A DNA stretch of 64,000 nt from Candidatus Stahliibacteriota bacterium (GTDB lineage Bacteria > Hydrothermota > Tepidihabitantia > B3-TA06). The stretch's first letter is position 1, and every line of letters begins with the position of its first letter. The notes beneath the pieces are model-generated. The model made no database searches. It was not told the DNA's origin and saw nothing but the letters and a program-made list of their open reading frames with translations. The DNA lies in the NCBI GenBank assembly GCA_004375895.1, contig SOJW01000040.1, forward strand, positions 16,616 to 80,615, given 5' to 3'. Of this stretch, positions 3,705 to 61,703 are shown one piece after another. Position numbers and translations under genes: made by a program.

Positions 3705-4913
3705 GTGGTTAAACCTTTAAGACTAGGCGTTTTCCTTGATCACAGCCATCTAAGTGACGGGCGCTTTACCGTAACGCAAGATGAAGCTTTAAAGTTCATA
3801 GAAGGTTTGAACCTAGCTGAATCTATTACACAGGCAGTTTCGATAATCCCTGTTGAAAAATTAGATCCGGAAAAGTACAATATAGTCCTCGAGCAAAGAG
3901 GCGTAACTGTGATCCCTTTACCAAGTTGGAGAAACGCTGCCGAAAACGTTCTGTCTTTGTTTTGTGACTTCAGATCTCATTTTGCTAAAGCTCGTTTATT
4001 CGTAGAGAACTGTGACGTAATTTGGTTAAGAATTCCCTCGATGATTGGTCTGTTCTTTTGGTGGGTTGCGAGAAAAAAACGAAAACCACTAATTCTTCAT
4101 GTGGTCAGCAACCTCCTTCTAGCGTCGAAACGATCTAAATATAAAGGGATAGTAAAAGTTTTAGCTCATTTGTTTTTTTTAATTTATCATCTAGCTGTTA
4201 AAATAATGACTCGTTATGGCCTTGTATTAACAGCCGGGGAAGAATTGAAGAGACTTTACTCGAATCCGTTACATCCCGCATTTTCAATAGACGACATTCT
4301 TATCAAGGAGAAGGATCTACAATCTGTAAAGAAAAAGAGCGGACAAGCGAAGGAAATACTATTTGTGGGAAGGTTTGCTTACGGTAAAGGGATAGATATT
4401 TTAATAGATGCAGTTGGAAATCTAAAATCTGAGTTTCCTGAAATACGTCTTGCGATGGCAGGGGATGGTATTTTATTGGAGGAGATGCGTCAACGAGTAG
4501 CGACGCAAGGGTTGAATAAGCACGTGAAAATCCTGGGGTTCGTCTCCGCGAGCGGGCCGCTACAAGAGCTTTACAAAAAAACCGATATCGCTGTACTACC
4601 ATCTGATAGTTATCCTGAAGGATTCCCAAGGGTAATTTTAGAGCTTTGGTCAGCCGGGTTACCTCTCATTGCAACTCGTCTAGCCGGGATACCTTATCGG
4701 GTTAAAGATGGCGTCAACGGTTTACTCGTTACCCCAGGGAATCTCAAAGAGTTAACTGATGCAATACGCAAGTTGATTGTCGATGCGGATTTACGACATC
4801 GACTTGCGGAGGGTGGTTCTCGGACTGTAAAAAGATTTACCTTTGAACATCAGGTAGATATTATCAAAAGACTCGTAAAGAGATATTATCCGGGGATCTA
4901 CGATCCTGTTTAA
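3705..4913 (+). CDS. glycosyltransferase family 4
   Basis: EILFVGRFAYGKGIDILIDAV, SYPEGFPRVILELWSAGLPLIATRLAGIP. Confidence 0.85.
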   Translation: MVKPLRLGVFLDHSHLSDGRFTVTQDEALKFIEGLNLAESITQAVSIIPVEKLDPEKYNIVLEQRGVTVIPLPSWRNAAENVLSLFCDFRSHFAKARLFVENCDVIWLRIPSMIGLFFWWVARKKRKPLILHVVSNLLLASKRSKYKGIVKVLAHLFFLIYHLAVKIMTRYGLVLTAGEELKRLYSNPLHPAFSIDDILIKEKDLQSVKKKSGQAKEILFVGRFAYGKGIDILIDAVGNLKSEFPEIRLAMAGDGILLEEMRQRVATQGLNKHVKILGFVSASGPLQELYKKTDIAVLPSDSYPEGFPRVILELWSAGLPLIATRLAGIPYRVKDGVNGLLVTPGNLKELTDAIRKLIVDADLRHRLAEGGSRTVKRFTFEHQVDIIKRLVKRYYPGIYDPV

Positions 4914-5096
4914 ACCAACACGCTACTTCAGGTTGAGATGCAGAACGAGTATGTTGCTTTAACCGGTAAAAATATCACCATGCTTAGTGGGTTTTAGGAA
5001 GTGGGAGAAGCGCTGACCTGCAGAGAGAACCTGAATCCTGATATATCCAGTCGCCCGGCGGCGTTTGCTTTATAAGGCCTGTGATTGGCTACTCGG

Positions 5097-6407
5097 CTAA
5101 AAATCAGAGATAGATTGTCTTGCGTTGAATTCCCTCCACGCAGGAAGGATTACATTGTAGTAGTATTCTTCGGCAAGACGCTTTCGGTCGAAACGCATAC
5201 CCACTTCCCGGGCCCGTTTGGACATCTCGCGGAGCCGGGCAGGGTCTTTTAATAGGTCCACAGTCTTGCGAGCAAGACTTTCTGGATCAGGATCTATGAT
5301 GCCTGCACCATTATCAAGTATCAAACGTTTGGTTTCAACGTAAAAACCAGGATCAAGCAAACCAACGACCGGTAAACCCGCTGCAAGATATTCGTAGTCT
5401 TTCGCGCTAGCCACTCCTTTATGGCTATATACTTCAGGAAATAGGGAATCAATTCCTAATCTCGCTTTTCCAAGATAGTCCGGAATCTGCCGTAAAGAAG
5501 TCATCCTTTCAAATTCTACGTTCTTACTTAAATCAAACTGTCTTAGACCAAGAATAAACTGACTTCCTAACGCCGTCTCAAGAATATCCGAAAGAAAGAG
5601 TAATTTCAGTCTGGGATAAATATCCCTGAGGCAGTGTAAAAACTTAAGCATTAAGACTGGATTTCTTACGGGTATTAATGTTCCTGAGTAAACAAGGTCA
5701 AACTCCTTCTTCACCCGAAGCGCCTTTTCGAAAAGCCTCACATCGCTTCCGTTAGGGATCAAAAAGATTGGCTTTCGCCGATAGCTGAGGGTTTTTATCA
5801 ACTCCTTCCGTAACCAATCGGTCACTGTTGCAATTCGTGACGCTTTGCAGAAAAGATGGTAAGAAACGAATCGCATAGAAAGGTTAAAGATGCGACGCAC
5901 AAAAGAGCCTTCTTTGAGCGGGAACATCGCAGCAGGTAAGTCCCGTATATCAACAACCAGCGGGCATCCCAGACGACGGGATAAGAGATAGCCTTCCAGT
6001 ATCTGCCATGTTGGTGGAAAACTTGCAAAAATAACGTCCACCTTCAAGCCTCGCACGAGGTGCAGCAACTTCGGGAATCTAGAGGGAAGCTTCAGAAAAT
6101 CCATGCGTGGTCCAGTAAGAGGAAATGCTATTCGAGAGTAACCCTCGTCGGAGTTCCCAGACTTATGTGTAACTACTGTCACATAAGCGAGGTTGCTCCA
6201 ATATCTCGCCAGAGAGTGAATGCGTGAGGATGCTGCCTTGTGGCTGGGGGGGAAATGTTTCTGCTCTACCAGGATGAGGATGTGAGGCTTACCCTTGTCT
6301 TCGCCAACCAAATCTTTGGGGATTCGAGAGAATGGTGTTCCTTTCGAAGCAGAGAGAGCGTACTCGGACATGGCAAGAATTGTATCCCTATCGATAACCA
6401 TTGTCAA
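5097..6407 (-). CDS. glycosyltransferase family 4
   Basis: GT-B architecture; KDYEYLAAGLPVVGL. Confidence 0.8.
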   Translation of the reverse strand: MTMVIDRDTILAMSEYALSASKGTPFSRIPKDLVGEDKGKPHILILVEQKHFPPSHKAASSRIHSLARYWSNLAYVTVVTHKSGNSDEGYSRIAFPLTGPRMDFLKLPSRFPKLLHLVRGLKVDVIFASFPPTWQILEGYLLSRRLGCPLVVDIRDLPAAMFPLKEGSFVRRIFNLSMRFVSYHLFCKASRIATVTDWLRKELIKTLSYRRKPIFLIPNGSDVRLFEKALRVKKEFDLVYSGTLIPVRNPVLMLKFLHCLRDIYPRLKLLFLSDILETALGSQFILGLRQFDLSKNVEFERMTSLRQIPDYLGKARLGIDSLFPEVYSHKGVASAKDYEYLAAGLPVVGLLDPGFYVETKRLILDNGAGIIDPDPESLARKTVDLLKDPARLREMSKRAREVGMRFDRKRLAEEYYYNVILPAWREFNARQSISDF

Positions 6408-6419
6408 TTTTTGAGATCT

Positions 6420-7916
6420 TCAGCTTTTGTTCCTGTTGCGCCTGAGCAGCTTGAGAATGAAATTGCGTTCAGAGGGCAGCAGAAATCCGAGAAGGAAAAG
6501 GATCCCCAGGTAAGCCGCACTCCCCAGACCAAGCTTTAAAAGAAACCCTACCAGCGGAGAGGAAACATGCCAGAAGTAAGAAGCAGCGGTTATCCCTGCA
6601 GATATTAAGGCGATGAGAACAATCCTTTTTGTCTCAAAGGGTATTTTCATTAGACGACGGCTGAAAAAGAACATTGACAAGGCCATCGCCCCATAGGAGG
6701 CGGCGGAAGCGATGGCCGCTCCCAAAAGCCCTATACGTGGCAGCAAAATCACGTTGGCCCCTACCGCTACACCCGCTCCAATAAACGTAACCAGCGTAAA
6801 GTAAATTGTCTTCCGTTGAAGATGGCAGGCGGTACCAAGAATAAAGTAGACCGCATAGAGACAAACCCCAAGAACCAGGAGAGGAACAAGAGGAGCACCC
6901 TGCCAGTACTCGGGGCGCTTTGCAATGAGACGTAGTATCTCGGAGGCCGCTCCCCCAAGTATCACAAGAGCCCATCCCGCGAGGAAAAGAAAGTAAGTCA
7001 AGACACGTGAGATTATATCCGGAAGGTCAGGTTGCTCCTTGACGGAAAATGCGTAAGGCAACCACGCCAAGGAAAGGGGAACGACTAAAATAAAAGATAC
7101 AATGTTGTGAAAATTTAAGGCAAATGCGAAGATACCCACATCTGTATGAGTAAGATAGAGTGGGATGAAGAGAAGTCGATCCAACATCCCTCTTCCCCAG
7201 AAGAAAAGAGAGGTAGGGATCAGGGGCAAAGAGTAAGCCAGCATACTCTTTAAGCTTGCAAAAGAAAATTTAATCCCTCGAGAATAGATATAGACAAAAG
7301 CTGAAGTAACGAGAAGAACAGGCACAACAAGCAAAACATCTACCTCATAAAGCCCCTGTAGCCCTCGTCCGAGAACCACGAGAAAAACGATGGTCAGAGC
7401 CACGCGCACAAGGCTGGTGGAGATAGTAAAAATACTGTACATCCCCGGTCGTTTTTCACTGCGCAGCAAGGCAAGAAAAATTAAAACCGCAGGATTGCCC
7501 ACCGTATAGATCCCGAACAGACGCAGGATCGACCTCAACTCCGCTGACTCAAGCCCCATTATTCTCTGAACGATGGAAGAATGAGACAGAAGTGGTGCAA
7601 AAACAAGAAGCAAACCGCCAAACAGCAATGAAGCCACTAAGGTGTAGGTAAACGCCGTGGAGACAAGCCGTCGGCGCTCCTCTTCACTCGTAGCCTTGTA
7701 GTAATCGGCGATCACAGCCTGGTTGAGTGCAAACAGAATAATTATCTGCAGAAATCTGTAAAAAGCTGTGGTGATGGAACGCACTCCGTAAAGATCTGCC
7801 GCAAGGTACGCTACATAAAGAGGAGCAAGCAAAACGCGAATGATCTGGTTGCTGGCGTTGCCTATCCCGTAGATCAGTGTATCTTTGGAGAGAAGTTTTA
7901 GATCACTAAGTTTCAT
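6420..7916 (-). CDS. polysaccharide flippase (Wzx/MATE-like oligosaccharide transporter)
   Basis: about 12-14 hydrophobic segments; start at MKLSDL gives ATGA overlap with wecB. Confidence 0.85.
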   Translation of the reverse strand: MKLSDLKLLSKDTLIYGIGNASNQIIRVLLAPLYVAYLAADLYGVRSITTAFYRFLQIIILFALNQAVIADYYKATSEEERRRLVSTAFTYTLVASLLFGGLLLVFAPLLSHSSIVQRIMGLESAELRSILRLFGIYTVGNPAVLIFLALLRSEKRPGMYSIFTISTSLVRVALTIVFLVVLGRGLQGLYEVDVLLVVPVLLVTSAFVYIYSRGIKFSFASLKSMLAYSLPLIPTSLFFWGRGMLDRLLFIPLYLTHTDVGIFAFALNFHNIVSFILVVPLSLAWLPYAFSVKEQPDLPDIISRVLTYFLFLAGWALVILGGAASEILRLIAKRPEYWQGAPLVPLLVLGVCLYAVYFILGTACHLQRKTIYFTLVTFIGAGVAVGANVILLPRIGLLGAAIASAASYGAMALSMFFFSRRLMKIPFETKRIVLIALISAGITAASYFWHVSSPLVGFLLKLGLGSAAYLGILFLLGFLLPSERNFILKLLRRNRNKS

Positions 7917-9022
7917 GCAGCTTGATTTTCTAAGAAGCCAAGCATCTCGCGGCACATGCATTCTGCCGCCCTGCCGCCGCCGAAACTTTCGATATCCGGA
8001 GATTGTGTTGGGATCGTTTCTTCCCTAATTCCCTCAAGTATCCGTTCCGGATCGATCCCCACGAGGCGATTCCACCTATCCTTTAAGGTCTCGGGCCACT
8101 CGGTCTCCTCCCGAAGCGTAAGACAGGGACGGGAAAGGAAGTATGCTTCGCGCTGCACGCCGCCAGAATCCGTAAGGATCAAGGAAGCATGTTCCTCCAG
8201 CAAAAGCATATCGAGATACGGCAAAGGGGCGATGATATCGATATGGTCGAGTTCGCTACTGGAAAGCTTCTTCAGGGTCTTGGCCGTCCGGGGATGGCAG
8301 GGAAAAATGATACGGGGGTGATTGTCGTGAGCGAGACACTTAATGACCCTTCTCAGGCAGTGCTCCTCGTCGACGTTCGCGGGACGATGCATCGTGAGGA
8401 GCCAGAAAGGTTCTTCTTCGATATCCAATTTCTTAAGGATGTTGGACTTTTCGCGAGCTATAGGGAGGAAGTGCTGGAGGGTATCCAGAAGAATGTCCCC
8501 GGTGTGAATCACCTCCTCGATCCGTCCTTCGCTTTTAAGATTGGCGACCGCGGTAGGGGTTGGACAGAACAAAATTTCCGAAACCGCATCGGTTACTATG
8601 CGATTTATTTCTTCCGGCATCCGGCGGTTGAAGCTGCGCAGCCCTGACTCCACATGAGCTACCGGAATGTGGAGCTTTACCGCGGCTAAGGCTCCGGCGA
8701 GCGTTGAGTTGGTGTCGCCGTAAACTATGACCAGATCAGGCTTCTCATCCATAAGCACCTTCTCAATCCCAATCATCGCATCGCCGGTCTGACGGGCGTG
8801 GGTTCCTGAACCTACCCCAAGATCGAAGTCAGGACGGTAGTTGAGTTCGTCGAAGAAGACCTGGGCCATGTCAGGACTGTAGTGCTGACCTGTGTGAAGC
8901 TGCAGGTGTTTTATCTCCTGCTTATCTTTGAAGGTCTTGGCAAGCATCGCCGCCTTGATGAACTGGGGACGAGCCCCGACTACCGAGAGGAGCTTTCTCT
9001 GCACTCCAGAACCATCAGGCAT
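7913..9022 (-). CDS. wecB: UDP-N-acetylglucosamine 2-epimerase
   Basis: GARPQFIKAAML, HTGQHYSPDMAQVFF, LTDSGGVQREAYFL. Confidence 0.93.
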   Translation of the reverse strand: MPDGSGVQRKLLSVVGARPQFIKAAMLAKTFKDKQEIKHLQLHTGQHYSPDMAQVFFDELNYRPDFDLGVGSGTHARQTGDAMIGIEKVLMDEKPDLVIVYGDTNSTLAGALAAVKLHIPVAHVESGLRSFNRRMPEEINRIVTDAVSEILFCPTPTAVANLKSEGRIEEVIHTGDILLDTLQHFLPIAREKSNILKKLDIEEEPFWLLTMHRPANVDEEHCLRRVIKCLAHDNHPRIIFPCHPRTAKTLKKLSSSELDHIDIIAPLPYLDMLLLEEHASLILTDSGGVQREAYFLSRPCLTLREETEWPETLKDRWNRLVGIDPERILEGIREETIPTQSPDIESFGGGRAAECMCREMLGFLENQAA

Positions 9023-16602: not shown

Positions 16603-16977
16603 CTAATAACCGAGTCTTCTGAGCTCTACGTCACTCAGCCCGAAGAAGTGGCCGATCTCGTGAAGCACAACACGGCGCAGGAGTGCCTTGATCTCTACAG
16701 GAGTCCTGGCGTAGCGTTCAATCAGAGATTTGTAGATAACGATCCGATCCGGCCAAAGACCGTAACCCGTGGCTCCGCGACGCCGCAGCGGAACGCCGTG
16801 ATAGAAACCCAACACCCTCCCCCCTATAAACGAGGGTGGATCAGCGGCATCCGGGTAATCCTTGACCGCGATAACGATGTTACGCTCATCGAGCGCCTTG
16901 CGAAACTCCTCGGGCAAACCGTCGATTGTCTCCTGCACGATCCGCTCGAACTCCTCGTAGCTCAGCTTGGAATTCAT
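16603..16977 (-). CDS. metallopeptidase family protein (small zincin-like)
   Basis: VVLHEIGHFFGLSDVELRRLGY; start MNSKLSYEEF with ATGA overlap to the recombinase gene. Confidence 0.8.
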   Translation of the reverse strand: MNSKLSYEEFERIVQETIDGLPEEFRKALDERNIVIAVKDYPDAADPPSFIGGRVLGFYHGVPLRRRGATGYGLWPDRIVIYKSLIERYARTPVEIKALLRRVVLHEIGHFFGLSDVELRRLGY

Positions 16978-17918
16978 GGCCGCGGATGGAAGGTCTTGTA
17001 GACCTCGCGCAGGTAGGAGCGGTCCACGTGGGTGTATATCTCGGTTGTGGAGATGCTTGCATGCCCAAGCATCTCCTGAACTGCCCGCAGGTCGGCTCCG
17101 CCTTCCAGAAGATGGGTGGCAAAGGAGTGGCGGAAGGTGTGAGGGGTGACGCGGCGCTTGATCCCTGCCGCCTGAACGTAGGAATGAATGATTCTCCACG
17201 CACCCATGCGAGAAAGTGGCCCCCCACCGCGAACGTTCAAAAAGAGCACGTCTCGTGCCTGACTGTGCGTGCGAAGCAACTTAAAGCGACCCAGATCAAT
17301 GTAGCGGCGAACCGCACGGATCGCAGGCTCGCCTAGAGGAACCACCCGTTCCTTATCACCCTTGCCGATGACCCGAAGAAAGCCTTCGTCTAGATAGATA
17401 TCCCCCAGACGCAGGCCGATCAGCTCGGATATGCGCAGCCCTGCCCCATAAAGTACCTCAAGCATGGTGTGGTCGCGCAACGCCAGGGCGGTGGAACGCT
17501 CGGAATCCGCGGATCTCTGGGCGTTCAAAGCGGCCTCAAGCACCCTTTTTACCTCATCCACCGAGAGCACCTGGGGCAGCTTACGAGGCAGCCTGGGCCC
17601 GGAGATATTCTCACCAGGGTCATGAGAGAGCTTACCAGTATCGTTGAGGTAGCGCAAAAACATACGTATGGCTGATAGCTTGCGAGCCACCGAACGGGGA
17701 GCAAGCTCTGCCTCGGCAAGGCGTGAAAGGTACTCCCGGAGAAGGGCAGAGGTTACATCGAGGATCCTCTTGCCTTTCTCTCTGAGAAAAGAGATGAACT
17801 GGCCGAGGTCACGCCCGTAAGCATCCACCGAATTCGGAGAGAGCCCACGTTCCGCAACAAGGTAGTTAAGGAACTCCTCAAGCAGAGGGTCGTCTTTCTT
17901 CTTATCAGCGTATATCAA
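16974..17918 (-). CDS. tyrosine recombinase XerC/XerD family
   Basis: HTFRHSFATHLLEGGADLRAVQEMLGHASISTTEIYTHV. Confidence 0.93.
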   Translation of the reverse strand: MIYADKKKDDPLLEEFLNYLVAERGLSPNSVDAYGRDLGQFISFLREKGKRILDVTSALLREYLSRLAEAELAPRSVARKLSAIRMFLRYLNDTGKLSHDPGENISGPRLPRKLPQVLSVDEVKRVLEAALNAQRSADSERSTALALRDHTMLEVLYGAGLRISELIGLRLGDIYLDEGFLRVIGKGDKERVVPLGEPAIRAVRRYIDLGRFKLLRTHSQARDVLFLNVRGGGPLSRMGAWRIIHSYVQAAGIKRRVTPHTFRHSFATHLLEGGADLRAVQEMLGHASISTTEIYTHVDRSYLREVYKTFHPRP

Positions 17919-19296
17919 AGGTTTGTTCTACCTCAGGAATCTGGATGTTCTCATAGCCCAACTCCCAGACAGCCTCGGCAAGTGCTTTAGATTGGTCCTC
18001 ATCCCCATGCACAAGAAAAACCTGTTTCACCTTCTTCGGGTTATAAGCGCGGAAGAACTCCAGAAGATCGTTTTGATCCGCATGAGCCGAGTACTCGTTG
18101 AGAACCTCCACCTGACAGTTCAAGGGATACTCCTCTCCATAGAGACGAACCACCTCAGCCCCCTCCACGATACGCCGACCCAGGGTGCCTGGTGCCTGGA
18201 AGCCGGTGATCAAAACCAGGTTCTTCTCGTCAGGGACGATTTTTTTTAGATGGTGGACAACACGTCCGCCCTCGCACATGCCGGAGGCGGCGATGATCAC
18301 GCAGGGACCCTTGATGTCGTTAAGCGCTTTAGACTCGGCAACCGTCTTCACGTAACGCAAACGGAAGAAACCGAAGGGGTCTTTATCCTGATCGAGATAC
18401 TCACGTGTCTCATCGTCGAAACACTCAGGATGCTTTCGGAAGACCCCGGTAGCCTCAAGCGAGAGGGGCGAATCGACCCATATCGGCATCTGGGGCAGCC
18501 TCCCCTCATCCATAAGCTGATGCATGACGAACACAAGCGACTGGGTCCGGCCGACCGAGAAGGCCGGAACGACTATCTTGGCCTTACGGTCATAGGCATC
18601 TTGAAGGATCTTCTGCAAACATTCTTTTGCTTCTTCAACCGGAGGATGTACCCTGCCCCCGTAGGTTGATTCCGAGATGATGACGTCAGGATCAGGGACG
18701 CGCTCCGGATCGCGCACCACAGGCAGATCAGGCTGGCCCAGATCACCGGTGAAGAGAATACGTCTCCCGTCGATCTCATAGAGCACCTGGGCCGACCCAA
18801 GAATGTGCCCTGCGTCATAAAAGGTCACGTGGATGCCACGAGCCAACTCACGCCTCTCGTGGTAATGCAGGGGAAGAAATTGCTTCGCCGCAGTCTGGGC
18901 CTCTTCGACAGTGTAGAGCGGCTCTACCAGAGGCTCTCCCCGTCTGGCGTGTTTCTTGTTCACGTACTCGACGTCACGCTCCTGGATCTCAGCCGAGTCA
19001 AGAAGCATTATCTTTGCAAGATCAATCGTGGCAGGTGTAGCATATATTAGACCCTTGTATCCATCTGCCACCAGCCTGGGGATGTTGCCTGAATGATCGA
19101 TATGGGTGTGTGAAAAAACCATAGCGTCTGCATTAAGGGCCGCCTGAGGCACTCGGCTGTTGATCTCAAATGCCTTTTTGCGATGGCCCTGGAACATTCC
19201 GAACTCGGTAAGGACTGAAGCTTTGCGCGTGCGCAGGACGAACTTGGAGCCTGTAACCGTCCTCGCCGCACCGAAGAAGGTCAATTTCAAGGACAT
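17905..19296 (-). CDS. MBL-fold beta-CASP nuclease / RNA-processing exonuclease family
   Basis: FSHTHIDHSG, FTGDLG, SAHADQNDLL, FLVHGDEDQ motifs. Confidence 0.9.
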   Translation of the reverse strand: MSLKLTFFGAARTVTGSKFVLRTRKASVLTEFGMFQGHRKKAFEINSRVPQAALNADAMVFSHTHIDHSGNIPRLVADGYKGLIYATPATIDLAKIMLLDSAEIQERDVEYVNKKHARRGEPLVEPLYTVEEAQTAAKQFLPLHYHERRELARGIHVTFYDAGHILGSAQVLYEIDGRRILFTGDLGQPDLPVVRDPERVPDPDVIISESTYGGRVHPPVEEAKECLQKILQDAYDRKAKIVVPAFSVGRTQSLVFVMHQLMDEGRLPQMPIWVDSPLSLEATGVFRKHPECFDDETREYLDQDKDPFGFFRLRYVKTVAESKALNDIKGPCVIIAASGMCEGGRVVHHLKKIVPDEKNLVLITGFQAPGTLGRRIVEGAEVVRLYGEEYPLNCQVEVLNEYSAHADQNDLLEFFRAYNPKKVKQVFLVHGDEDQSKALAEAVWELGYENIQIPEVEQTFDIR

Positions 19297-19370
19297 TGCC
19301 TAGTTTACATAAAATCAGATCGGATGCAAGGTCCCCCTCCCGATAAAGATAACTGGAGCTGGCCGGTTCC

Positions 19371-19976
19371 TTAAATCCCCCTAAGCCTCTTACCAGTAAA
19401 CCCGAAAGGCACGGTGGCCCTGGTAGCGACAATAATCGTTCCCTTTGAACTCAACTCACCCTTCAAGGATCCTTTCTCGAGATGTGTCTTCAAGACAGCC
19501 TCAACGTCGGTCTTGGTCATCCCTTCGAAATGTACCTCGAACTTGGTCGCATACCAGAGTCTTTGCGCCAGAAAACAGTTCTTGAGTCTCTTACCTGCCT
19601 GCGTTTCTAGAAATTTCTCGATTGCCTGGGCTTTCTTTATTAGGGTGTTGGGGTCGTTAAATTCCTTCACCCTGACGTCTTCAACTTCGTAAGTGACTGA
19701 GCTAGCGTGCTGCAAACCTCCTGAGATGTTCAAACCGAAGTTCTTTGCGCTCGCTTTACCCTTAAGGCTCAATCTGCGGGTGAAGTTACCTACCACTATG
19801 CTGGCGTCGTCAGAGGAAGCCGCCCACTCCGCCTTATCAAGCAGATCATCCAACCTGCCCTCCTCAAATAATCCCCGCCTATCTGGACATAAGATAGAAG
19901 CCGGGTGCAGCCTTCTGGTCGCCACCGGCAAGGAACGTATCCCGTTGCGCTTCAAATATTGCATGTAGGTTGCCAT
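19371..19976 (-). CDS. hypothetical 201-aa beta-rich protein; possible bacterial gasdermin-like pore domain
   Basis: intact ORF with promoter and strong SD; layout resembles bGSDM (see findings). Confidence 0.55.
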   Translation of the reverse strand: MATYMQYLKRNGIRSLPVATRRLHPASILCPDRRGLFEEGRLDDLLDKAEWAASSDDASIVVGNFTRRLSLKGKASAKNFGLNISGGLQHASSVTYEVEDVRVKEFNDPNTLIKKAQAIEKFLETQAGKRLKNCFLAQRLWYATKFEVHFEGMTKTDVEAVLKTHLEKGSLKGELSSKGTIIVATRATVPFGFTGKRLRGI

Positions 19977-19999
19977 TATCTCCTCCTTTGGTGAAACTT

Positions 20000-20027
20000 A
20001 TTATAGATTTTTTTCGTCAAATGTCAA
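20000..20027 (-). promoter_or_regulatory. promoter TTGACA-N16-TATAAT for the 19976 gene, followed by AAAGGAGGAG SD
   Basis: direct reading. Confidence 0.75.
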
Positions 20028-20086
20028 GTTATTTGCAGGTTTGTTTGTCTCCAATACCTCGTTTTAATGGAACCTCTGGCCATACC

Positions 20087-20120: not shown

Positions 20121-20987
20121 ATGCCGAAGTTTACACCTAAAGCGAAGAAGGAGCAAAAAGAAAAACAGGCCCCCAAGCCGCCTGAGAAGAAAGAAGAACC
20201 CAAGCCTGCGGACGAGGAGCTTGAAAAACTGCGTGAACTAGAACGCAAGTTCGGTAAGGCAGGTGGTAGGGAACCCCCAAAAGAGGGGAAGAAGGAAGAA
20301 AAGCAACCCTGGGGGGGGCAGGAAAAGGTATGGGAAAAGATAGAGGGTTCAAAGAGGGGAGAGCAAGGGAAAACCTCGGATAGCCGTGAGCGAATCATCC
20401 GGCATGAGGCAACCCGTCATTACAGGCCGCCTGAGGGGATGATAGGGCGTGGCGAACCCGAATACATCCCCCCCGAGAAGCTTGAGAAGTGCAAGCGTGA
20501 GCTGGCAATGACCGAAGCGCGGCTGCGCACCCTGGAGCGCGAAGAGCATGATATCAACAAGCGGCTTGAGTACCTGCGCAAGGAGCACTCGGCCATGGAG
20601 ATGGCTATAAAGGAGAAGACCTACCTTGAGCGGGAGATAGCCGAGCTGCGCGAGGACCGCGACCGGATAAAGTCCAAATTGGACGAACTCAAGGAGATGG
20701 AGGGCGAGCTGGAGAAAAAAACCTGGGAGGAACTTAAGCGCTCGCCCGCCATAGGTGCCAAGATCTCAGCGCTGGAGCGGCGCATCCACGAGCTTGAGGG
20801 CCAGATCATTGAACTCAACGAGCAGCGTTTGAAGGCGGCAGGCGCTCCTATGGAAACCCCTGAACCGAAGCCCGCTCCCAAACCCCGGCCCAAGGTAGAG
20901 AAACCCGTAACACCAGCACCTCAGCCCAAGCAGGAAGAAAAGAAGAAACCGCCTACCAAGAAGAAAAAACCCCGCCTGACGTTTTAA
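20121..20987 (+). CDS. hypothetical K/E/P-rich coiled-coil protein
   Basis: long heptad region flanked by Lys/Pro-rich tails. Confidence 0.7.
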   Translation: MPKFTPKAKKEQKEKQAPKPPEKKEEPKPADEELEKLRELERKFGKAGGREPPKEGKKEEKQPWGGQEKVWEKIEGSKRGEQGKTSDSRERIIRHEATRHYRPPEGMIGRGEPEYIPPEKLEKCKRELAMTEARLRTLEREEHDINKRLEYLRKEHSAMEMAIKEKTYLEREIAELREDRDRIKSKLDELKEMEGELEKKTWEELKRSPAIGAKISALERRIHELEGQIIELNEQRLKAAGAPMETPEPKPAPKPRPKVEKPVTPAPQPKQEEKKKPPTKKKKPRLTF

Positions 20988-38662: not shown

Positions 38663-39826
38663 ATGGCATTGACATTGCAAGCGAGGAAAGCCGTGACTAA
38701 AGAGACTTTCAAGCGCTACCAGAAAGCTCCTAAGAAGGAGAAGACGAGGATACTGGACGAGTTTGTGGCTTTGACTGGCTACACGAGACACCATGCCTCG
38801 TGGGTTTTAATGACCTGGGAGAAGCGCAGGCCCCCAAAGCGCACCAGGTCGAGGCCCCTTATCTACGACCGCAAGGTGTTTAAGGCACTGCGTAAGGTCT
38901 GGATAGTATGCGACTGTATCTGCGGCAAGCGCCTGGCTCCCTATCTTAAAGAGATATTGCCTATTCTTATATCATACGGTGAGTTAACGGTGGATGGCGA
39001 GACCAGGGATAAGCTGGTTAGGATAAGCGCTGCTACTATAGACCGGCTTCTGGCATCGGAGAAGGCGAAGTATAAACTAAAGCCCAGATCGAAGCCTGGA
39101 ACCTCACTACTGAATCGGATACCGGTAAAGACGTTCTCACAGTGGGACAGGAGCAAGCCTGGTCAGGTTCAGGTGGATCTGGTAGAGCATAACGGAGGTA
39201 TCACCAGAGGCGAATACGCCTGCAGCCTGGTTATGACCGATCCCTTCAGCGGCTGGACAGAGGTTCGTGCAGTAAAGAACAAGTTAATGTTACTTTTTGC
39301 CCAAGGCCAAAAAATCCGCAACGGAAAACAGGTAAGACCAACCTGTGAGTTGTGCTTCCTGCGATCTTTTGTTCCGCAGGAACAAAAGGAGCATAAAAGG
39401 CGTTACAAGAAGAATGATAACTTCTGCGTAGAGCAGAAGAACGGTAACGTAGTGAGAAGAGCCGTAGGTTACGGTCGTTACAGCGGGGAGCGGGAAGTGA
39501 GTATGCTGAACCGGTTGTACGAGTCTCTTAGATTATACGTAAACTACTTCCAGCCCATGATGAAGCTCGCCGAGAAGAGCAGGATAGGAAGTAAGGTAAG
39601 TAAACGTTACGACGAGGCCAAGACACCTTATCGCAGGCTCCTTGAGTACACAGAAGTTTCTCCAGAGCTGAAGGAGTTTCTAAACAGACGGTATGAGGCA
39701 TTGAATCCAGCGGAGTTGAAAAGAGAAATAACACGTTATCAACAAGAACTATTTACATACTCTTCCCGCAGACGAGGTATAAGGAAACCTGAGATGGACA
39801 AAACCTTACTTTCAGGTAGAATTTAG
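38663..39826 (+). pseudogene. DDE integrase-type transposase, open frame but catalytic centre replaced
   Basis: N-terminal HTH, QVDLVEHNGG...MTDPFSGWTEVRAVKNK and YKKNDNFCVEQKNGNVVRRAVGYGRYSG; no DNGSEF-type motif between them. Confidence 0.75.
39359..39393 (+). repeat. stem-loop family copy f (core TTTTGTTCC-GCA-GGAACAAAA) inside the transposase
   Basis: CTGCGATC...GGAGCA flanks. Confidence 0.9.
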
Positions 39827-45614: not shown

Positions 45615-48600
45615 CTATTTTTTATTTCGGTTTTCACGGCGAAGGGGCGCATCGCCGGAGGTGTTAAGTATCTCCGCAACCACCTCCTCAAACTTCCTGG
45701 CTTTCCCCTTCTTTAGCATCGCTTCGAATTCCTCGGGTGATAGCTTGGATTTAAGCTCGGCAAGCAGGTTATCTGCTTTATCCCTGGTGTCTTTTTCTGC
45801 GCCAGGGTTCTCAATCACCACCGCGAGAAGTTCCAGCGCCCTATGGGGTTCATCCTTTTGGGCAAGCAGTTGTGCTGTTTCAACTAAAATGTCTGCTTCT
45901 GCCATCACGCGTTTTATTTTGGTTGCTAACTCTAAGGCATCCCGGAAGTAGCTGCCCGCTTCTTCATATTTGCCAAGAGCGCAGGCAACCTTGCCCAGGC
46001 CCTTCAGGGAGAAAGATTTCCCCCATGGATTGTCCATTCCCTTAGAAATTTCCAGACCCTCCTGATGGAACCTTCTTGCTTCCCCCCAGGCTCCCAGAGC
46101 AAAGGCCACATCGCCCATGTGGTTCAAGCAGAAGACCATACCTTCCCGGTCGCCGACTTCCCTGGAGATATCAAGCGCTTCTGAAAGGAGCCCTCGCGCT
46201 CTTTCGTACTCCTTCTTGTAGAGCGCGGCCTCGCTCATGTTTCCAAGAACGATATCCATCCCCCAGCGGTGCCCCAGCTCTTTGTAAATGGCAAGGCTTT
46301 CGGCATAGCAGCGGTTCGCCTCGTCATAGGCTCCCATCGCCAGAAGGGCGTTTCCCATGTTGTTGAGGGTCCTTGCCAGACCTCGGTAATTGCTCATCTT
46401 TCTGTGCACCGCAAGACTCTCTTCACTCTTTGCCCTTGCTTCTTCATACTCCCCCTGATTTATGGCAATACTGGCCAGGCCTGAGAGGGCATTGCCTATC
46501 TTAACCTCGTCGTCGATCTCGCGGCTCAGGACAAGGCTTTCGGCAATAAACTCGCGTGATTTATCGTACTCGCCAAGACGGTGACAGATGGTTCCCAGGG
46601 CGCTAAGAACAAAGATGATCTCCTTTTTTGCATCGAGCTTACAGAAGACAGGAAGAGTTCTTTCAAGAAGCGACTTGCCCTCCTGGTAGTCTCCCAGTCG
46701 ATAGGTGAACGCTGCTTCGAAGGCTCCGACCTTTGCAGGCACCAGACCTTCGCTTCCCTCGATCTCTGCCGCCGCCCAGGAAAAGAGATCCTTGCCTTCC
46801 GCGAAACGCCCTTGGTGTTCGTAGAACAAAGAGAGGCTCTCAAGATACTTGGCGATCGTCACGAGGTCCTTTTTCCCCACCGCCCAGCGGAATCCCGCAC
46901 GGATGTTCTCGATCTCGGCTCTGATCTCCTCCAGGGCCTCCTTCTGCCTCGCGCCGGTAAGCTCGGGCTCCCTTTGATCCAGTGCCTGTCCCTGGTAGGC
47001 GGCGTGGAGGTCTTTTGTCTTCCCGTGCTCCTCGGTATCCTCTGCCAGCTTCTCCTCGGAGTATCGCCTTAAGACCTCCAGCATCTGGTAGCGGCCGGAG
47101 ACGTCTTTTGTAATGAGCGACTTGTCTATCAGAAGCGAGAGCAGGGGCAGCGAGGCACCTGCAATCCGCTCTGCCGCTTGGCGGGAGAAACCAGCTCTGA
47201 ATACCGAGAGCCTGCGGAACGCATCTTTCTCCTTCTCGTTCAGGAGCTTCCATGAGTAGTCGAAAACGAGCTTCAGGCTTCGGTGCCTTTCAGGAACGTC
47301 GCGAAGGGGGGTGGCCAGGAAATCGTAGCCTCGCTCGATCTCCTCGGCAATCTCGGCCAGGGAGAGTGCGCGCACCCATGAGGAGGCAAGCTCTATACCT
47401 AAAGGAACCCCCTCCACAAGCCTCGAGATGCGCGCTACGAAGGGCTTATCCTTTCCGCCTATCACCAGTCCTGGATCGAGGCGTCGTGCGCTTTCGGTAA
47501 AAAGCTGCACTGCGCTGTAGGCTTCGATATCTGTGACGGCGGCTTCCTGAGGAAAGTCCATCCCAGCGAGCTCCAGTATGGCTTCCCCTTGAAGGGCGAG
47601 CCTCTCCCGTGAGGTAACCAGCAACCTGAGCTTGGGAGCCTCTTTGAGGATCTCGGAAAGGAACCCTGCATCCTCAACCAGGTGCTCGAAGCTGTCGAGT
47701 AGGATGAGCGTCTCCTTCTCCCCGAGAAAGGCAAAAAGCTGGCTCTTAGGCTCCTGGCTGCCGTAGAATGAGAACTCAAATGAGTCGGCTATAGCCGGAA
47801 TAAGAAGGTCTACGGACCCCAGTGAGGCAAGCGCAACGAAGCGCACCCCGTCCGGGAAACGATCCAGGATCTCGGCAGCCGACTGGACAGCGAGGCGCGT
47901 CTTGCCGATCCCACCCGGACCCAGGACAGTTACCAGACGATTCTCCTCCAAGAGTCTCTTTGCCTCCTCTATCTCTTCCTCGCGTCCCACAAAGTTGGTG
48001 AGAGCGAGGGGAAGGTTATGTTCTACATATTCCCTCTTAACCCCGACCTTCTCTGCAAGAGGGGTCTCGGAGAAGTCCTCTCTAAGCAGCCATTTATTGT
48101 CTTCCCTCTTTAATACACCCCGGTTTATGAGATAGGTAAGCCCCTTGCGGAGGAAGGCGGGAAGGCCCCTTGTCTGGCTGTGAAGCCAGCGGATGAACTC
48201 AGATGGCGGTTCCCAACCCAGGGGGCTGCGCAGCCATACTTGAACTCCCTTCTGGGATAAAGGCTCAAGCTCCAACGTCTCCCAGAGATGGGTCTGAATA
48301 AACAGTCTGCGGGAGCTCTCCGCCTCCACGGTGTAGGAGAAAGCGACGATTGGTACTTCGCTTGAGGCGAGGAATCCACGCAGAAGCTGTAGGGTTGCTC
48401 CATCAAGCTCAGCAATGTTGTCGATCGCGAAGAGAAGTCTGGTTGTCCTCTTCTTACTTAAGAAATCCTCTAAGGCCTGCGTCAGTTTTTCTTTGGCTAA
48501 CGACGTCAAGGGGCTCTCTTCGAATGCCTGCAGCGCTTGGGCAAGTGCAAATCCCGGCCTCAGCTTGGTGGCCGGATTGCCCTCGAGCCGGATAACCTCG

Positions 48601-49298
48601 TAGGCCTGCAGACCTGCAGCCATTGCAATCTCGGCAAGAAATCTTGATCTTCCCGAACCCCGGGGTCCGGTAACCGCAAGCACCCCTCTCTTCTTCTCTT
48701 CCAGCTGCTTGAGAAAATCCTGCACCTGCTGCAGCGCCTCGTCCCGTTCAACCAGGCTGGAGGCTTCATCAAAGGGCAGATGGATACCCCTTGCCGGGCT
48801 CTGCGCCACCACCTGTCCGCGTCCAGCGCGCTTGGCCTCATAGAGTCTGAGATCGGCCTCCCCGAAGAGCTCATCGGCGCTGCGGCCGTCTTCGGGAAGA
48901 CTGACCACCCCGATGCTCACCGAGATTGACAGCGGCGGGTTGCCCTTGAAGGGCTCAGAACCGGTTACCTCCAGAAGCCTGTCCGCAAGGGTAAGCGCCT
49001 GATCCTTGGAGGTAGCGGGTGAGATAAGCAAGAACTCGTCCCCTCCGTAGCGGAAGAGGATGTCACTGTCCCTTATGGTGGATCGCGCGCGCTCTGCAAA
49101 CTCGGCCAGCACCTCGTCGCCCCGCGAGTGGCCGAAGCCGTCGTTTATGCTCTTGAAATGGTCTATATCCATAAAGAGAAGGGAGAGGGACCTGGCTTCC
49201 TTCGCGGCGCGCTTCACCTCCCCTTTAAGCCTTACCTTGAATTCCTCTCGGGAGTAGGCACCGGTGAGGTGGTCTCTCATCATCGGTTGTGAATTCAT
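45615..49298 (-). CDS. GGDEF diguanylate cyclase + AAA-type NTPase + STAND NTPase + TPR protein
   Basis: RYGGDEFLLIS; AVTGPRGSGRSRFLAEIA; NFVGREEEIEEAKRLLEENRLVTVLGPGGIGKTRLAVQ; several TPR units. Confidence 0.9.
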   Translation of the reverse strand: MNSQPMMRDHLTGAYSREEFKVRLKGEVKRAAKEARSLSLLFMDIDHFKSINDGFGHSRGDEVLAEFAERARSTIRDSDILFRYGGDEFLLISPATSKDQALTLADRLLEVTGSEPFKGNPPLSISVSIGVVSLPEDGRSADELFGEADLRLYEAKRAGRGQVVAQSPARGIHLPFDEASSLVERDEALQQVQDFLKQLEEKKRGVLAVTGPRGSGRSRFLAEIAMAAGLQAYEVIRLEGNPATKLRPGFALAQALQAFEESPLTSLAKEKLTQALEDFLSKKRTTRLLFAIDNIAELDGATLQLLRGFLASSEVPIVAFSYTVEAESSRRLFIQTHLWETLELEPLSQKGVQVWLRSPLGWEPPSEFIRWLHSQTRGLPAFLRKGLTYLINRGVLKREDNKWLLREDFSETPLAEKVGVKREYVEHNLPLALTNFVGREEEIEEAKRLLEENRLVTVLGPGGIGKTRLAVQSAAEILDRFPDGVRFVALASLGSVDLLIPAIADSFEFSFYGSQEPKSQLFAFLGEKETLILLDSFEHLVEDAGFLSEILKEAPKLRLLVTSRERLALQGEAILELAGMDFPQEAAVTDIEAYSAVQLFTESARRLDPGLVIGGKDKPFVARISRLVEGVPLGIELASSWVRALSLAEIAEEIERGYDFLATPLRDVPERHRSLKLVFDYSWKLLNEKEKDAFRRLSVFRAGFSRQAAERIAGASLPLLSLLIDKSLITKDVSGRYQMLEVLRRYSEEKLAEDTEEHGKTKDLHAAYQGQALDQREPELTGARQKEALEEIRAEIENIRAGFRWAVGKKDLVTIAKYLESLSLFYEHQGRFAEGKDLFSWAAAEIEGSEGLVPAKVGAFEAAFTYRLGDYQEGKSLLERTLPVFCKLDAKKEIIFVLSALGTICHRLGEYDKSREFIAESLVLSREIDDEVKIGNALSGLASIAINQGEYEEARAKSEESLAVHRKMSNYRGLARTLNNMGNALLAMGAYDEANRCYAESLAIYKELGHRWGMDIVLGNMSEAALYKKEYERARGLLSEALDISREVGDREGMVFCLNHMGDVAFALGAWGEARRFHQEGLEISKGMDNPWGKSFSLKGLGKVACALGKYEEAGSYFRDALELATKIKRVMAEADILVETAQLLAQKDEPHRALELLAVVIENPGAEKDTRDKADNLLAELKSKLSPEEFEAMLKKGKARKFEEVVAEILNTSGDAPLRRENRNKK

Positions 49299-59380: not shown

Positions 59381-60832
59381 GTGCTCTTAGCCTTGCTTCT
59401 TGCCTTGAGCCTCTCCGCAGCACAGGATGCAACCTGCTGCAACGAGTTCATCGTTAAAACAGCGGATTTCGGGGCCCTAAAAGGGTTTGCCTCGGGGTAT
59501 GGGATCGAAGTTGCTCCCTTTATAACCTACCCCAACCCCTCGGATGAGGTGCTGGAGCTGTTCGGAGACTACTATCTAGTCACAATACCTGGCGGAGGAC
59601 GCGTCTCCGTGGATAGCTTTTACTTGCTACTTAAAAACATGCCCGGTGTCGAGGAAGTTGAGCCGAACGCAATCCTTCAAGTGGGGCCCGAATTGGAATC
59701 CGCGAGCCTAGAAGAGACGTTTAGCACCCACGATTCAACTTTCGAAGGGCCATATATACCTAACGATTGGGGTTATTGGTATCAATGGAATCTCCATACC
59801 ACGAGAGCAGACTGGGCATGGAACATAACGAAGGGGGATTCAAATATCGTAATCGCAATAATTGATTCCGGTGTAGATACGTCGCATGTAGACTTGAGGA
59901 ATAACCTGGTTGCAGGCTACAACTTTATCGATAATAACACGGATATTCAAGATACCTACGGTCATGGTACGCGTGTGGCTGGCGTTGTTGCGGCGGAGAT
60001 AGACAACTACGAAGGGATAGCCGGTATAGCCGGTGGGTGTAGGGTTATGCCTTTGAGATGCATGGATGATTCGGGTGATGTAAAACTACGCCAGGCGACA
60101 AATGCGATTCTGTACGCGGCGGACGAGGAGGCAAAGATAATTAGTATGAGTTTCTCCGGAGGGGGCAGCTCTGCAGAAAGGCGTGCAATAGATTATGCCT
60201 GGCGCAAGGATCGTTTTTTATGTGCATCTGCCGGCAATGAGAGTCAGGATACTTCAAATCTTTATCCAGCGGCCTACAAGCATGTTATGTCAGTAGGTGG
60301 TTCAAATAGGGATGATGAAAGATGGAGTGATGAAGATTGTGGTTCCAATTACGGGGAATCGGTTGATATATACGCGCCCGGAGAACATATTTGGACAACC
60401 ATGTTGGGGAGTAATTACGGAACCTGTAGAGGGACTTCTTACTCTTCCCCTGCCATTGCGGGATTGGCTGCGTTGATCTGGAGCGTGCATCCTGAATATA
60501 CAAACGAAGAGGTTTGGGATGCCATAATCTCAAGTGCGGACACAATAGAGATCGATGTAGGGAAGGTATTAAGGATGAACTGCGATTTGTTCACCGCTTC
60601 CGCGCCGAGCATCCAGAAGGACACCTTATCCTTCGATTATACCGGCACCAAGCCGACGGACTACAGGCTTACCTTCTACGACGTATCCGGCCGCAAGGTA
60701 TACGAAACCCATGGATCGGTCGGCGAGATGGGGCGCATTGATCGTCATTCTCCCTTACCTCACGGCGTTTACTTCTGGGAGATGCGGACCCGGTTTGGCA
60801 CTGGCACAGGGAAGGTCGTCTACTTAAAATAA
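59381..60832 (+). CDS. subtilisin-like S8 peptidase with T9SS-like C-terminal domain
   Basis: AIIDSGVDTSH, YGHGTRVAGVVAAE, GTSYSSPAIAGLAAL; C-term LTFYDVSGRKVYE...PHGVYFWEMRT. Confidence 0.93.
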   Translation: MLLALLLALSLSAAQDATCCNEFIVKTADFGALKGFASGYGIEVAPFITYPNPSDEVLELFGDYYLVTIPGGGRVSVDSFYLLLKNMPGVEEVEPNAILQVGPELESASLEETFSTHDSTFEGPYIPNDWGYWYQWNLHTTRADWAWNITKGDSNIVIAIIDSGVDTSHVDLRNNLVAGYNFIDNNTDIQDTYGHGTRVAGVVAAEIDNYEGIAGIAGGCRVMPLRCMDDSGDVKLRQATNAILYAADEEAKIISMSFSGGGSSAERRAIDYAWRKDRFLCASAGNESQDTSNLYPAAYKHVMSVGGSNRDDERWSDEDCGSNYGESVDIYAPGEHIWTTMLGSNYGTCRGTSYSSPAIAGLAALIWSVHPEYTNEEVWDAIISSADTIEIDVGKVLRMNCDLFTASAPSIQKDTLSFDYTGTKPTDYRLTFYDVSGRKVYETHGSVGEMGRIDRHSPLPHGVYFWEMRTRFGTGTGKVVYLK

Positions 60833-60958: not shown

Positions 60959-61606
60959 TCAGGTTTTGCCTTCTGGTTTACGCATACTCTTCGGGCGGTA
61001 GTCGCGGTGGTCAATGCAAGAATCGTATGTGGCTTTGTCGATTCTGATCCAGTCGGTCTTGGCAATGCCTCGTCTTTTGTGAGTGGGACTATATGGGAAT
61101 GCGCAAGCAACCTTAATCCACCGGTTCTGCTCCTGAGCAATTATACGTATCTCTTCGGCTGCTTCCGAGAAATCCTGATCCTCACTAAAGATAAGAGCCA
61201 CGTCGTATTCTCGCCGATGGGCCAATCTTATAACATCCAGAGCGATTCTCACATCCACACCCTTCTCCTGACCCAATAAGAAGGTATGTTGTGTTCCATC
61301 AGGCAAAGTTACTGTTATGTTGCGATAGCGCAGGGGCCGCGAGAAGATGTAAACTCCTTGATGGCTCAGCACTCTCAGTTTTAGAGACCAGAAATTATGC
61401 CAGAAAGCGTTGTCTGAGGCCTCTGGAATCCCGGTATAGAACCTTACTCGGCTCAATTGCCAACCTTCATTTTGACAAACAAGTTTCGATAAAGCCGATA
61501 CATCATAATTCGGGTAGGTATAGCCAAAGGCTTCCCGAGCCGAATGGAATAGATTTTGTCCGTCTATGAAAGCTATTGCTCGCTTTACTGAAGGTTCGTC
61601 TGGCAT
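60959..61606 (-). CDS. NYN-domain (PIN-like, LabA/DUF88 family) protein
   Basis: AIAFIDGQNLFHSA, GVDVRIALDVIRLAHRREYDVALIFSEDQDFSEAAEEI. Confidence 0.88.
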   Translation of the reverse strand: MPDEPSVKRAIAFIDGQNLFHSAREAFGYTYPNYDVSALSKLVCQNEGWQLSRVRFYTGIPEASDNAFWHNFWSLKLRVLSHQGVYIFSRPLRYRNITVTLPDGTQHTFLLGQEKGVDVRIALDVIRLAHRREYDVALIFSEDQDFSEAAEEIRIIAQEQNRWIKVACAFPYSPTHKRRGIAKTDWIRIDKATYDSCIDHRDYRPKSMRKPEGKT

Positions 61607-61675
61607 ACTTATCCTCCAAAGAATAACCCCGCCCGGGCCTTTCGGCGTGTCGAGCGGGGAGCAATTTGTAATTTT

Positions 61676-61703
61676 ATTATAGTTAAGATTCACTCCTTGT
61701 CAA
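61676..61703 (-). promoter_or_regulatory. promoter TTGACA-N16-TATAAT for the NYN gene
   Basis: direct reading. Confidence 0.7.

Follow-up and report, generated by a model that had tools for sequence, protein, structure and literature searches.

Results

Genomic Setting of the Gasdermin-Like Gene

The window, that is, the whole stretch of 64,000 nt that was analyzed, belongs to a genome of candidate division WOR-3, whose nearest relative in the named collection is the WOR-3 MAG contig JAGMDF010000082. On its minus strand lies an ORF of 201 codons with an ATG start (19371–19976), the product of which (201 aa, ending in ...TVPFGFTGKRLRGI-stop) is, on the evidence of profile matches and fold models presented below, very likely a tail-less gasdermin-core protein. 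The ORF is preceded on the same strand by a Shine–Dalgarno sequence AGGAGG (19982–19987), by a −10 hexamer TATAAT (20000–20005), and, across a 16-nt spacer, by a −35 hexamer TTGACA (20022–20027), both hexamers being exact, such that the promoter matches the consensus at 12 of 12 positions. The strong promoter and Shine–Dalgarno sequence claimed in a preliminary description of this stretch are thus confirmed to the letter. This promoter is retained in all five relatives despite differing DNA around it upstream, and the Shine–Dalgarno region reads AAAGGAGGAGA in G000, G001, G003, and G004 and AAGGAGAAG in G002. The ORF is a real gene, with orthologs in four other species, and its dN/dS amounts to 0.17–0.27 within each of the two versions described below, which indicates that it is under purifying selection. 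It is present in single copy, and none of the genomes contains another.

Five species of one genus (G000–G004) carry the gasdermin-like gene at one site, and in all of them the gene order is the same: a divergently transcribed coiled-coil protein (20121–20987, plus strand), the gasdermin-like gene, a beta-CASP/RMMBL metallo-beta-lactamase nuclease (17905–19296, minus strand), a XerC/D-type tyrosine recombinase (16974–17918, minus strand), and a small Zincin_1 metallopeptidase with a HEIGH motif (16603–16977, minus strand). These neighbors are of a housekeeping type, and the gene sits in no obvious defense island or recognizable defense operon. In G005, which represents the sister genus, the same gene row is found, but there the coiled-coil gene directly adjoins the beta-CASP gene and no gasdermin is present. 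On this basis, the simplest account of the gasdermin unit, which comes with its own promoter, is that it was inserted in this genus; the inserted unit, which G005 lacks at the corresponding intergenic site, approximately spans the promoter, the ORF, and some 55 bp downstream (19316–20084, minus strand, ∼770 bp). As G005 retains the coiled-coil gene, the beta-CASP gene, and the Zincin_1 peptidase in the absence of a gasdermin, we rejected these three as dedicated partners. With regard to the preliminary description, the beta-CASP and coiled-coil neighbors that it had listed are indeed there, and its claim that no protease is adjacent holds in the sense that synteny and the empty site of the sister genus leave no dedicated protease; its picture of the neighborhood nevertheless has to be corrected, for it did not mention the Zincin_1 peptidase, the nearest one to the gene, which is the third gene downstream of it, in the same orientation, and ends the run formed by the gasdermin, beta-CASP, and Xer genes.

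Elsewhere in the window, we observed a 1,227-aa protein in which a GGDEF region is joined to two NTPase regions (AAA_16 and NACHT/NB-ARC-like) and to TPR regions in an unusual diguanylate-cyclase/STAND fusion (45615–49298, minus strand), a subtilase (Peptidase_S8) that probably carries a signal peptide (59381–60832, plus strand), and a protein with a NYN domain, to which PADLOC HEC-09 gave a match (60959–61693, minus strand; E = 5.6e-13). A 387-aa ORF that looks transposase/integrase-like by eye, with no Pfam match at 1e-4 (38663–39826, plus strand), is located just past the end of the synteny with G001, near 38.4 kb.

Sequence Profiles and Fold Models Point to a Gasdermin

The bGSDM profile of PADLOC (PDLC02986) aligned residues 5–194 of the 201-aa protein with profile positions 7–211 of 257 (E = 2.3e-7), and it also retrieved the G003 copy (E = 1.5e-8) and the divergent G004 copy (E = 8e-4); the G002 copy, when searched singly, gave no match to it. 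As controls, the reversed sequence and four shuffled sequences failed to match this profile, and a survey of 147 genomes of the phylum with the bGSDM profile returned a match at the gasdermin-like locus only. In NCBIfam, the prok_gasdermin family (NF051890) was matched with E = 5.6e-5, but at 23 bits against a curated cutoff of 100 bits. The resemblance of the protein to gasdermins hence exceeds chance. Sequence identity to bacterial gasdermins (bGSDMs) of the Bradyrhizobium, Vitiosangium, and Runella type is ∼20%, hhalign against one bGSDM clade gave only a weak result (probability 5.8%, E = 0.0065), no Pfam match was obtained, and sequence searches of the PDB with either the protein or a five-sequence profile as query found nothing. 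Likewise, no relatives of the protein were found in phages, plasmids, and viral contigs, nor in a further 142 genomes of the phylum.

AlphaFold models of the two versions of the protein, referred to as class I (to which the window's copy belongs) and class II, were built from alignments of their own family only, known gasdermins being left out and therefore unable to steer the predicted fold. Confidence is low for both models (pLDDT 57.6 for class I and 47.7 for class II). When the class I model was compared with the whole PDB by Foldseek, the Bradyrhizobium gasdermin 7n50 came out on top (E = 0.08), all other matches lying above 1. For class II, the first nine matches were all gasdermins (in order, 7n52, 7n50, 7n52, 7n52, 9pe0, 8sl0, 7n51, 7n52, and 9a84), the best being Runella 7n52 (E = 3.7e-4, prob 0.99). 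Given the low confidence of the models and the weakness of the hhalign result against a single clade, the case rests on the agreement of independent lines rather than on any one of them, and on that agreement we regard a gasdermin fold as very likely. The homology put forward in the preliminary description has thus held, with support from two profile libraries and two fold models that place gasdermins at the top of the PDB, and the outcome that would have refuted it, namely a confidently predicted fold of another kind or a match to the profile of a different family, did not occur.

A Core without Tail, Dedicated Protease, or Palmitoylation Cysteine

The last core strand of the protein, TVPFGFTGKRL (residues 188–198; 19383–19415, minus strand), aligns with LTFAFSCVRL of ordinary bGSDMs, these being bGSDMs from another class, and the ORF stops three codons later. 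To put this figure in perspective, the tail was measured in the same way in 25 ordinary bGSDM loci: in every complete copy of the gasdermin-like protein, 3–6 residues follow the last core strand, versus at least 42 in 25 out of 25 ordinary bGSDMs. With only 57–74 nt between the stop codon and the next gene, there is also little room for a tail hidden behind a misread stop. The missing C-terminal tail, with an ORF ending three residues past the final motif, had been correctly noticed beforehand. A further departure concerns the N-terminal Cys, which is palmitoylated in most bGSDMs (PMC12547243) and invariant at residue 6 or 7 in our reference bGSDMs: it is absent here, no copy having a Cys before residue 30. 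The Cys residues that do occur differ in position between the versions: class I has them at residues 30 and 134, class II at residue 57. Other features are kept, as the hairpin regions and a basic/aromatic beta1–beta2 loop (e.g., RRKKGFF in class I and RRRRCKYTQW in class II) are retained in both versions, and the net charge of the proteins is +11 to +17. Their length of 201–205 aa is below that of the cores of RCD-1 (244–257 aa) and TrichoGSDM (250 aa), and it is accordingly possible that the ability to form pores has itself been lost. Overall, the predicted fold and the profile match are those of a gasdermin, whereas the tail, a dedicated protease, and the palmitoylation Cys are lacking, and for these three failures we filed the protein as a core-only variant rather than as an ordinary bGSDM.

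Two Deeply Diverged Versions Are Exchanged at One Site

Class I is found in G000, G001, and G003, and class II in G002 and G004, the two being only ∼40–45% identical at the protein level. Between the sister species G003 and G004, the flanks are 89–97% identical in DNA (dS 0.10–0.38) while the gasdermin ORF is 49% identical with saturated dS; between the distant species G004 and G002, the flanks are 67–72% identical (dS from 1.4 to saturated) while the gasdermin is 88% identical in DNA (dS 0.30). The edges of the G003/G004 swap are sharp, with a break at the start codon and a return of similarity ∼50 bp past the stop, and the promoter and Shine–Dalgarno sequence are nearly identical between these two species; the exchange between lineages thus involved only the ORF. 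Two deeply diverged versions have therefore been swapped at a single chromosomal site; this is shown between species only, as we have no within-population data. A chimeric assembly is unlikely to lie behind this pattern, for the G004 gene, at 88% DNA identity, is distinct from that of G002, and on the 8.5-kb G004 contig that carries it the DNA to either side matches G003, albeit this is judged without raw reads. This polymorphism, the more unusual part of the locus, could not be seen by the author of the preliminary description.

A second recombination is apparent in G001, where nt 451–603 derive from a G003-like copy and dS to G000 leaps from 0.05 to 0.74. Within this recombined segment, the G001 copy also carries an in-frame TAG at codon 157 (L003:1969–1971), which implies that the gasdermin-like gene can be lost.

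Exchange is not confined to this gene, as the MacB of G004 is nearer to that of G000 than the G003 MacB is, and the polysaccharide genes at 3705–7961 are also strongly diverged in G003. In the latter interval, glycosyltransferases and a polysaccharide flippase-like gene are 50–56% identical to G003, between neighbors at 70–92%, as in a second replaced block. The further DNA that could be aligned between G003 and G004 (∼22 kb, 89–95% identity) is too little for a genome-wide swap rate. What stands out at the gasdermin locus is hence the depth of the two versions and not exchange as such.

Discussion

The reading that we favor, and to which we give roughly equal chances of being right or wrong, is that of a core-only gasdermin that acts without a protease and is subject to diversifying selection, in which pore formation, the trigger, any interaction between alleles, and a role in defense are all inferred. 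Since the gene has a strong promoter and neither a tail, nor a protease, nor a second copy, the free protein must be tolerated by the cell. We may thus imagine a protein that would be made constitutively and that would remain, when alone, soluble and monomeric or loosely membrane-bound. A nonproteolytic trigger, most likely the binding of a partner (a protein of phage origin, or else the other version), would then drive its oligomerization in the cytoplasmic membrane via the basic beta1–beta2 loop and the two hairpins, and the oligomer would open a pore and kill the cell. Because bacteria do not fuse, we infer that a phage or other foreign trigger is more likely than the other version. The two versions would be kept and swapped as the partner to recognize or avoid itself varies, and diversifying selection by such a partner would account for the version swap. 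A pore triggered by a partner or a signal is proposed by analogy with RCD-1 and TrichoGSDM, in the absence of any pore or killing data, and the idea of the preliminary description that the protein is regulated in another way likewise remains an inference. As for control by a disulfide dimer, as in Trichoplax, it was set aside on account of the Cys positions that differ between the versions.

A bolder, RCD-1-like reading, which we hold to be unlikely, would have class I and class II each inactive and forming a pore only together, so that a cell gaining the other version dies; the cross-species polymorphism would then amount to a self/non-self death switch, set off by gene transfer or by a phage-borne version, and the gene would be an incompatibility locus or a barrier to gene transfer (transformation, conjugation, or other). 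In its favor, the gene is tail-less and single copy, with two versions of ∼40–45% identity exchanged across species at one locus, and the formal pattern is that of N. crassa rcd-1 (PMC11760362, PMC12881547). Against it, fusion is unavailable to bacteria, diversifying selection by phages yields the same pattern in the absence of within-population data, and the transfer of the other version gave a viable lineage, G004, even though replacement, as opposed to co-residence, avoids the clash.

It is also doubtful, if conceivable, that the protein keeps the gasdermin fold without pore activity and acts instead in regulation, in the inhibition of other gasdermins, or as a structural component that binds the membrane. 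Its size below that of known core-only gasdermins, the lack of the palmitoylation Cys, the strong and apparently constitutive promoter, and the location among housekeeping-type genes would all fit. However, the genome has no other gasdermin to inhibit, the hairpin regions and basic loop are retained in both versions, and the turnover of versions is typical of conflict genes.

The two remaining alternatives are very unlikely. An unrelated alpha/beta protein with a chance profile similarity would be consistent with the weak hhalign result, the low pLDDT, and the lack of a Pfam match, but two profile libraries agree, shuffled sequences are negative, and a gasdermin is the top PDB match of both separately modeled versions. 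Finally, an ordinary protease-activated bGSDM with its inhibitory part and its protease encoded elsewhere, be it through an inhibitor in trans or through cleavage by the Zincin_1 peptidase nearby, could invoke the same-strand position of that peptidase three genes downstream, but there is no tail to remove, every complete copy of the ORF stopping directly behind the core, only 57–74 nt precede the next gene, and the peptidase and the two intervening genes occupy the same place in the gasdermin-less G005.

Gasdermins kill cells by perforating membranes, and those known from bacteria have been characterized as restrained by a C-terminal peptide until a protease activates them. We found no report of such a tail-less bacterial gasdermin in the literature searched, most subscription papers and preprints being outside its scope. 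A core-only bacterial gasdermin implies either that another on/off control exists or that pore forming has been abandoned, and both possibilities bear on how the control of gasdermins evolved.

Comparison with Known Gasdermin Systems

Like the bGSDMs of Bradyrhizobium (7n50), Vitiosangium (7n51), and Runella (7n52), the WOR-3 protein has a full-length colinear profile match, the same predicted fold, and the same order of elements (beta-alpha-beta hairpin 1, hairpin 2, and a final FGF/FAF strand); unlike them, it is encoded by a single gene and has no C-terminal inhibitory peptide, palmitoylated Cys, or dedicated protease. Podospora HET-Q1/HET-Q2 is likewise a case of a microbial gasdermin at a polymorphic locus, but there the protease HET-Q2 cleaves a short tail off HET-Q1, and the WOR-3 locus has no such tail or protease. 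Precedents for tail-less gasdermins that work independently of proteases are RCD-1 and TrichoGSDM (PMC12547243, PMC11760362). TrichoGSDM of Trichoplax adhaerens (8jyv/8jyw) is also core-only, thereby by necessity cleavage-independent, and is held off as a disulfide homodimer (PMC12547243), whereas the WOR-3 protein does not conserve its Cys positions between versions. RCD-1 of Neurospora crassa (RCD-1-1/RCD-1-2) is core-only as well, with one copy per haploid genome and two deeply diverged versions at one locus, each of which is inactive alone while the pair makes a pore (PMC11760362, PMC12547243, PMC12881547). The WOR-3 protein differs in being bacterial, shorter, and without sequence relation to RCD-1 beyond the gasdermin fold, and the heterotypic activation and within-species polymorphism known for RCD-1 have not been shown for it; with two versions at one locus, a pair of small natural genes nonetheless offers a direct test of the comparison with RCD-1.
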